Shown here: piece after piece, positions 30,010 to 31,812 of the stretch
How the letters are laid out: every line of letters starts with the position of its first letter
Numbering within the stretch: the stretch's first letter is position 1
From: Acidicapsa dinghuensis
Lineage (GTDB): Bacteria; Acidobacteriota; Terriglobia; Terriglobales; Acidobacteriaceae
DNA: 64,000 nt
Assembly: GCF_025685685.1 (NCBI RefSeq)
Contig: NZ_JAGSYH010000002.1
Span: forward strand, 668,768 to 732,767
Direction: 5' to 3'
Notes under the pieces: generated by a model
Seen by the model: only the letters and a program-made list of their open reading frames with translations
Databases searched by the model: none
Told to the model about the DNA's origin: nothing
Translations under genes and position numbers: made by a program

Positions 30010-30423
30010 GTTTTTCGTTTCTCTCTGTTGAACCGCCGCGTTCGCTGAAACGATCCGGTTGCCAAACGCACATTTGTGGAGTACGGTCTTGTGCACTGCT
30101 GGCTGGACCGTTGATCTCCGCGGCCGATTGTTTGTAGGCAATACGGCAAGAGGCAAACAAGGCCAAAGTGCGGCGCTGCCGCTGATGGAACACGGGAGAT
30201 TCTCTTCTTTTTAGGGTTGTCCGGATCGATTGCGGGGCTGTGCTTGGCTGCGTTTCCGGCAACTTCCTTACCTCTCCTCCGTGTTTCCCTACCCTCTGCG
30301 CAATCAATCGATGCTCTTCCCGCGCGGCACAACGCTGCGGTGGATGGTTGTTGCCATTCAGATGCTCCTGTTGCCGGGCGGGGTGAATCTCACCTGCTCT
30401 GAACCCGGAAAGAAGGAGTTGCT
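30010..30423. other. Intergenic stretch before the Cys-ladder gene
   Basis: 413 bases. Short frames on both strands lack ribosome-binding sites and show no family character. The last 20 bases contain the GGAAAGAAGGAG ribosome-binding region of the next gene. No RNA gene or repeat is visible. Confidence 0.5.
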
Positions 30424-31812
30424 ATGTCTGATACATCTCAACAGGACAAGATCTCTCAGTTGCAGCAAACCGGTGAAGCGATGGGAAAGCTCGCCGCGGA
30501 TGAGGCTGCGTTTACACGAGCAGCGGAAGCATTTCGCGCCCAGAATGCCGCTGCATTTCAGGCGGAACTGAGCAGGATAGGACTGCTGCCACTCTGCAGG
30601 CTGGTCTGTAGCTGGTTTTGCAGCAAGCACTGCGTTTTCTACTGCCAGAAGCTATGCCCGCCGCCGGTTGCCACGGAAGCGGAGGTGCCAATCTCGGAGT
30701 GGCGCGATTTTGCGGTCGTCACGGCGAATCTGACGAAGAACCAGCCTCTGTTGGAGCAGTTTCTGGCAGCGGTTGAGGATGAAGACGCCAAGCAGTTCCA
30801 GGCGTTGCTGGCGCAGAACAAATGGCAGATCTATTGCCATCAGCTTTGCCACTTCCTATGCGGCGTACGCTGCCGGCTGGCATGCAGGCTGATGTGCCCT
30901 CCACCGCCGCTGATCACTGAGGTATCGGAGATTCCGGCGTCGCAGTTTACTCCCTCCGGACCGGGACTGGGCCTGGCATCGGGTCCGAGTTTCCCTCCGG
31001 GGCCGACTCCCACCGATAACAAGCCGGCAGGAGTCGGGGATCATCCGATTGGTGGCTTGTCGAACATCCAAGGAGTCTTTGAGATTGCATCTCCGTTTCA
31101 GTACAAGGTGGAGTTTGCAACCTCTACGGCTGGACCATGGACACCGATTCTGACGCCGATCAGTGACTACCGCTTCAATCCCGGATATCCGCCGCCACCG
31201 CTGTTTCTGTACTACTCGCGGGTTCCCGATGCGAGCGGGTGGTACAACGTTGCGGACATGGGATTGCTTGGGCCTAACTATCTGACGGACTGGAGCACTC
31301 CTGCAGCCGCCGCGAACGATCAGTACTATTTGAAGCTGACAGTGCGGAACCCGGCGCTGGCGGAGTTTGAGAGCCCGATCATTCCGGTCAGAGTTGACAA
31401 TCAGGCGCCGTCGAAGCCGGTGATCACGCTGCAGTTGCAGATGCCGGATGGATCGCGACGGACGCTCGGGTGCTGCGAGACGGTGAAACAGGGCGACGGG
31501 AACCTGGTGATCATTACGCTCCAGGCCTCGGACCCCAACTTCAGCGCGATCTCGGTGGAACTGCTCGGCGGATGCGGGGCGAGCTACGCCATCGTCGACA
31601 CTGGCGGCAACAGCCTTTCGAAGACCTATAACGGGAACATCAATGACACTGGCTATCCGGTGCCGACGGAGTTCAAGTGGAATCCGTGGGCGGCGAAGAT
31701 CAGCCCGTGCTGCTATCTGATCGACGTGCGTATCGACGATCGGGCCGTGGTCAACAATGCGTGGTCAGGTGGCCACTCGAACGGGAATTGGCAGTCGATT
31801 ACCATCGCGTGA
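30424..31812 (+). CDS. Uncharacterised protein with two (C-X3)5-C cysteine ladders
   Basis: 462 residues, no clear signal peptide. Six Cys at 58, 62, 66, 70, 74 and 78 are spaced exactly four apart, then PPP. A second set at 138, 142, 146, 150, 154 and 158 repeats the pattern, again followed by prolines; the two blocks are exactly 80 residues apart. Each follows a helical stretch rich in Ala, Gln and Glu, so the protein looks like an ancient duplication. On a helix, i+4 spacing puts all six thiols on one face, suggesting metal storage, a metal cluster or disulfide stapling. From about residue 180 the protein is Pro/Gly-rich, then beta-rich with further Cys (CC pairs near 350 and 430). I recognise no family. 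A GAAGGAG site precedes the ATG. Confidence 0.75.
   Translation: MSDTSQQDKISQLQQTGEAMGKLAADEAAFTRAAEAFRAQNAAAFQAELSRIGLLPLCRLVCSWFCSKHCVFYCQKLCPPPVATEAEVPISEWRDFAVVTANLTKNQPLLEQFLAAVEDEDAKQFQALLAQNKWQIYCHQLCHFLCGVRCRLACRLMCPPPPLITEVSEIPASQFTPSGPGLGLASGPSFPPGPTPTDNKPAGVGDHPIGGLSNIQGVFEIASPFQYKVEFATSTAGPWTPILTPISDYRFNPGYPPPPLFLYYSRVPDASGWYNVADMGLLGPNYLTDWSTPAAAANDQYYLKLTVRNPALAEFESPIIPVRVDNQAPSKPVITLQLQMPDGSRRTLGCCETVKQGDGNLVIITLQASDPNFSAISVELLGGCGASYAIVDTGGNSLSKTYNGNINDTGYPVPTEFKWNPWAAKISPCCYLIDVRIDDRAVVNNAWSGGHSNGNWQSITIA

Follow-up and report, generated by a model that had tools for sequence, protein, structure and literature searches.

What kind of protein carries two long runs in which every fourth residue is a cysteine, and what would such runs be for? 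This question is raised by a gene at 30424..31812 (+) of the window, the whole 64,000-nucleotide stretch of Acidicapsa dinghuensis DNA analysed here, whose product has 462 residues, 17 of them cysteines, and no Sec or Tat signal peptide. The gene starts with an ATG at 30424, preceded by a Shine-Dalgarno-like AAGAAGGAG read directly from the sequence at 30410..30418 (+) and by an in-frame TGA at 30400, eight codons upstream. Together these fix the start and leave no room for a longer N-terminus that could hold a signal peptide. A DMP19-like gene (PF14300, 29563-30009) lies directly upstream on the same strand.

The two exact (C-X3)5-C ladders described in an earlier note on this DNA, at residues 58-78 and 138-158, are confirmed in the 462-residue reading frame. 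Ladder 1 (30595..30657, (+)) has its cysteines at 58, 62, 66, 70, 74 and 78, and ladder 2 (30835..30897, (+)) at 138, 142, 146, 150, 154 and 158. The claimed spacing of exactly 80 residues holds for the window protein but varies from 76 to 82 in its relatives. Likewise, of the proline triplets said to end each ladder, the one after ladder 1 is not conserved in relatives, whereas a PP after the last ladder is mostly kept. The window holds two copies of the corresponding DNA pattern, (TGY-N9)5-TGY, which did not appear once in 100 dinucleotide shuffles. A class-wide scan, however, showed that the bare pattern also matches low-complexity and simple-repeat DNA in many acidobacterial genomes, and we therefore take conservation in homologues, rather than the pattern itself, as the sign of importance.

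The ladder gene is real and conserved: it has at least 14 relatives, spread over three or more acidobacterial lineages. When 300 genomes from its family were searched with the protein, nine matched, its own among them, and in one of these (G029) the similarity is confined to the C-terminal region. L015 (66% identical) and L016 (64% identical) came from a scan of the collection; both are labelled Acidobacteria, and the latter group 4. Profile searches added the carriers G413, G1044, G1014, G831 and G927; a weak match in G620 proved spurious. Two ladders are present in eight proteins (the window protein, L002, L003, L015, L016, L061, L094 and L095), while L004, L005, L006, L007, L018 and L063 have four, as does the partial L008. 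Homologues conserving all twelve cysteines, which the earlier note had named as support, were thus found: the window protein and its seven two-ladder relatives all retain 12 of 12. The proteins of the family are 450-760 residues long and share a large conserved beta region.

The gene is at the same time rare and patchy, occurring in about 1-4% of the genomes searched, and the closest relatives found of the window protein lie outside its own genus, a distribution that points to horizontal transfer or to frequent loss. Searches of plasmid, phage and IMG/VR sequences gave no relatives. We also note a stop-riddled remnant, L096 (G108), that resembles a ladder module (E 9e-4, five stops); it may be a pseudogene, in keeping with the gene having been lost repeatedly. 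The earlier note knew of no family for the ladder protein, and the profile searches agree: Pfam, PHROG and PDB sequence searches gave no family match, no NCBIfam model scored above its cut-off, and a literature search found no described bacterial Cys-ladder family. The family appears to be undescribed in the libraries searched. A Nif11-like leader, suggested by the helix sequence, was also considered and matched no Nif11 model.

Structure prediction bears out the proposal of two Cys-lined helices. The AlphaFold2 model of residues 1-166, built on a three-sequence alignment (pLDDT 85.7, pTM 0.81), consists of two modules, residues 6-78 (30439..30657, (+)) and 86-158 (30679..30897, (+)), each with three short helices followed by a ladder helix. 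The predicted helices of module 1 span residues 6-25, 27-38, 42-51 and 55-66/71-77, and those of module 2 follow the same pattern at 90-105, 107-118, 122-131 and 135-146/151-157. The full-length model shows both ladder helices unbroken, at 55-77 and 135-157. Modelling confidence is lower in the middle of the ladders. About 50 residues of helical sequence precede each ladder, and the profiles of the two modules align with an hhalign P of 1.4e-22, or 1.6e-12 with the ladders cut off. This alignment indicates that the modules are homologous and that the N-terminal domain is a tandem duplication, which has been duplicated again in the four-ladder proteins. Fold searches with this domain, modelled as eight short helices, turned up no clear counterpart (best Z 2.6; Foldseek E no better than 1.3), a result that is no proof of a new fold.

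The N-terminal domain is followed by a Pro/Gly-rich linker (residues 159-204; 30898..31035, (+)) that is predicted to be disordered (pLDDT about 25), and then by a beta-rich, weakly Ig-like C-terminal region (31036..31809, (+)) for which the model has low confidence. In fold searches it comes closest to Ig-like domains, RbmA among them (Z 8.1, 101 residues), and the three further cysteine sites reported there are real, at 350/351, 384 and 429/430. The ladderless protein of 701 residues in G029 (L073:3025-5543) shares this beta region with the window protein, at 36% identity over residues 400-453.

The most informative evidence on the ladders comes from the members that have lost cysteines. We tabulated 20 ladder pairs, of which 13 are complete and seven incomplete; L094 and L095 add two complete pairs. 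In all seven incomplete pairs the missing cysteines are partners with i+i'=7, that is, Cys i of the first ladder is lost together with Cys 7-i of the second. The losses fall into three events: C3 to R with C4' to Y or F in L004-L008 (clade support 97/93), C5 to V with C2' to F or A in L018 and L063 (100/98), and C1 to A with C6' to A, confined to L063. The tree and the sequences place these independent events in separate branches, and the clades of the first and second events each retain the rungs lost by the other. Three partnered losses would arise by chance with a probability of about 9e-4 if each event hit any two of the twelve sites at random, 0.004 if it took one site from each ladder with random partners, and 0.018 when agreement in any one register is accepted, figures that rest on only three known independent ladder events. 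The replacements themselves (R with Y/F, V with F/A, A with A) are plausible contact pairs. The antiparallel arrangement of Cys-lined helices that the earlier note had expected is thus supported, indirectly, by co-loss in three events.

Pairing extends beyond the ladders. Among the two-ladder proteins, all six variable cysteine columns form three pairs of identical distribution: 114/149, gained in L002 and L003; 252/281, gained in L015; and 351/384, absent in L002, L003, L094 and L095. Because changes come in pairs, the cysteine totals of these proteins are 15, 17 or 19 and never even, and the odd total leaves one cysteine without a partner. In the four-ladder proteins, L018 and L063 share a further gained pair (319/364), and several other cysteine changes are unpaired.

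Since the ladder cysteines are lost as partners across two helices, one rung at a time, the pattern says that they work as cross-helix pairs in antiparallel register. Disulfides are the simplest common cause, because the cysteines of the beta region follow the same parity, and the six cross-links between the ladder helices are probably disulfides. A crude CA/CB model illustrates the geometry that this would demand: straight helices fail to bring together six rungs set at four-residue intervals, and a right-handed antiparallel supercoil with a pitch of about 40-60 Å brings CB-CB distances near 3.8 Å at all six rungs. The hydrophobic residues found just before most cysteines run parallel to the cysteine stripe, as is expected if the helices coil together.

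We therefore favor, with a probability of roughly 0.6, a duplicated domain with pseudo-two-fold symmetry that is stapled by six disulfides between its ladder helices and carries a beta/Ig-like tail, in a protein with a structural or adhesive role. Each module would comprise three short helices and then a long one in which every fourth residue is a cysteine, and the modules would pack with pseudo-two-fold symmetry within the N-terminal 160 residues. This symmetry would make the ladder helices antiparallel, with Cys i facing Cys 7-i and proposed rungs at 58-158, 62-154, 66-150, 70-146, 74-142 and 78-138. Six disulfide rungs would form a covalent zipper, a very rigid stalk or cap. The C-terminal region, with disulfides of its own, probably has a binding function, for which reason the protein is most likely structural or adhesive. 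It would most likely reach the outside of the reducing cytoplasm by a route other than Sec or Tat. Conservation, duplication and the partnered losses are observed, the helices are predicted, and the disulfide chemistry, export and structural role are inferred from them. Several points weigh against the stapled domain: in a reducing cytoplasm disulfides would not form, and we identified no exporter and no Sec/Tat signal; paired loss also fits two-Cys Cu(I) sites; one carrier has its ladder gene close to a CusCBA-type operon; odd cysteine totals leave one residue over; the ladder middle is modelled less confidently; and the ladder losses amount to three independent events, beside several unpaired cysteine changes in the four-ladder proteins.

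A more specific version of the stapled domain, which we hold tentatively and at somewhat less than even odds, is an antiparallel coiled coil zipped by six disulfide rungs on a strict four-residue repeat, built from a duplicated module that was perhaps once homodimeric, in a protein without a Sec/Tat signal. The strict four-residue repeat would impose an unusually tight right-handed supercoil. We know of no described counterpart to such an architecture and, if the rungs are disulfides, to our knowledge no longer disulfide zipper between two helices. Such a structure would show how an antiparallel helix pair accommodates a four-residue repeat, which would be of use to protein-fold theory, and would have potential as a rigid scaffold. 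Oxidation of a Cys-rich protein that lacks a signal peptide would then need explaining, and the partnered losses allow the pairing to be tested directly with one purified domain.

The main rival is metal binding. The twelve thiols would then remain in reduced form and hold Cu(I), Zn(II) or some other soft metal between the helices for storage, sensing or detoxification, by analogy with cytosolic Csp3. Its main argument is the missing signal peptide, which leads one to expect reduced thiols, and the Cys-lined helices do resemble Csp cores (PMC7558416). The loss pattern argues against Csp-like intra-helix CXXXC sites and against tetrathiolates formed by neighboring rungs, since single rungs are lost across helices rather than i,i+4 pairs within one helix or blocks of two rungs. 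Furthermore, the beta-region cysteines also change in pairs, the ladders show no conservation of His or Met, and the copper-binding four-helix bundle family PF03860 matches none of 13 sequences (Pfam scans of the window protein and 13 ladder units, E up to 5). Gene neighborhoods offer this rival two loci. A CusCBA-type RND efflux operon precedes one four-ladder gene (L058:3237-12028, G217) by about 260 bp, and a DUF1360 gene follows that ladder gene. Another four-ladder gene (L054:7135-11755, G109) has two adjacent ArsA-family ATPase genes upstream. The ladder genes of the other carriers, however, adjoin no metal genes, and among the carriers' neighborhoods no gene neighbor is conserved. We treat CusCBA, ArsA and DUF1360 as leads rather than as evidence for one function. 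Metal storage or sensing, among the functions put forward by the earlier note, is thus not borne out by the losses, the PF03860 scans or the neighborhoods; we consider metal binding unlikely, and metal storage less likely than a disulfide zipper. Genes with sigma-70 region matches adjoin two ladder genes, one directly upstream (L015:5160-5915) and one divergent (L055:11236-11847).

A thiol-redox scaffold, in which the rungs are reversible disulfides and the domain switches between zipped and open forms as a redox buffer or sensor, would make use of the high density of equivalent cysteine pairs. Directly after two four-ladder genes and one ladderless relative (the 701-residue protein of L073, G029) comes a gene for DUF1360, a small protein of the membrane in which a DCFYC or DCFKC motif is conserved; in G029 the DUF1360 protein has a CxxC motif. 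Yet DUF1360 adjoins only two ladder loci, no thioredoxin-like partner was seen, and the strict retention of all rungs in most members suggests a structure rather than a switch, making this scaffold improbable. A DUF1360-like match also occurs in L077 (G269), beside a VgrG-like protein and a pentapeptide-repeat protein.

We regard as very improbable a RiPP-like or toxin precursor, whose ladders would be CXXX core peptides cross-linked by a radical SAM maturase or released as a helical-hairpin toxin. In its favor are sub-threshold matches to CXXX-repeat radical SAM target families and to the halocin C8 domain. Against it, all of these fall far below curated cut-offs (TIGR04449, the halocin C8 domain, window unit 10.7 bits against 24, best E 0.007; TIGR04117, window unit 10.1 bits against 50; TIGR04118, best E 0.068 among 13 ladder units, not above the curated cut-off), 11 carrier genomes have no match above cut-off to the CXXX maturase TIGR04115, no maturase gene was seen next to the ladder genes, and the proteins, at 450-760 residues, include their large conserved beta region.

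Known Cys-rich helical systems share parts of this design. The CXXX-repeat radical SAM RiPPs (TIGR04117, TIGR04118) also have (C-X3)n repeats but are short peptides with a cognate maturase, in both respects unlike the ladder protein. The helical hairpins of CHCH or twin CX9C proteins and of the small Tims are antiparallel helices stapled by first-last cysteine pairing; they have two rungs and CX9C or CX3C spacing, are mitochondrial, and show no sequence match to the ladder protein. Csp1 and Csp3, four-helix bundles of the PF03860 type, likewise have helices lined with CXXXC cysteines and many thiols per domain, and cytosolic Csp3 also lacks a signal peptide (PMC7558416). The ladder protein differs from both in the eight short helices predicted for its two modules and in its attached beta tail, in the lack of a sequence match, and in co-loss pairs that lie between helices rather than within one.

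There is also a parallel with the alpha-hairpinins, whose CX3C and CX3CX3C motifs lie on antiparallel helices and whose four-Cys form pairs C1-C4 and C2-C3 (PMC10136942, PMC11591084). They too place a cysteine at every fourth residue of two antiparallel helices, pair first with last and come in multi-module precursors. Their CX3C on each of two segments corresponds here to (C-X3)5-C twice, and the co-loss of partners with i+i'=7 in three events would match their first-last pairing. Alpha-hairpinins, including the six-Cys form Nigellin-1.1 (PDB 2NB2), are plant peptides of under 50 residues with two or three rungs, a signal peptide and a short loop, whereas the ladder protein is bacterial, has 462 residues, six putative rungs, duplicated modules and no signal peptide, and matches none of them in sequence. 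The 4-20 residues that separate the cysteine segments of these short secreted peptides compare with 59 between the two ladders of the window protein. By analogy, the ladder domain may best be read as resembling an over-extended alpha-hairpinin.
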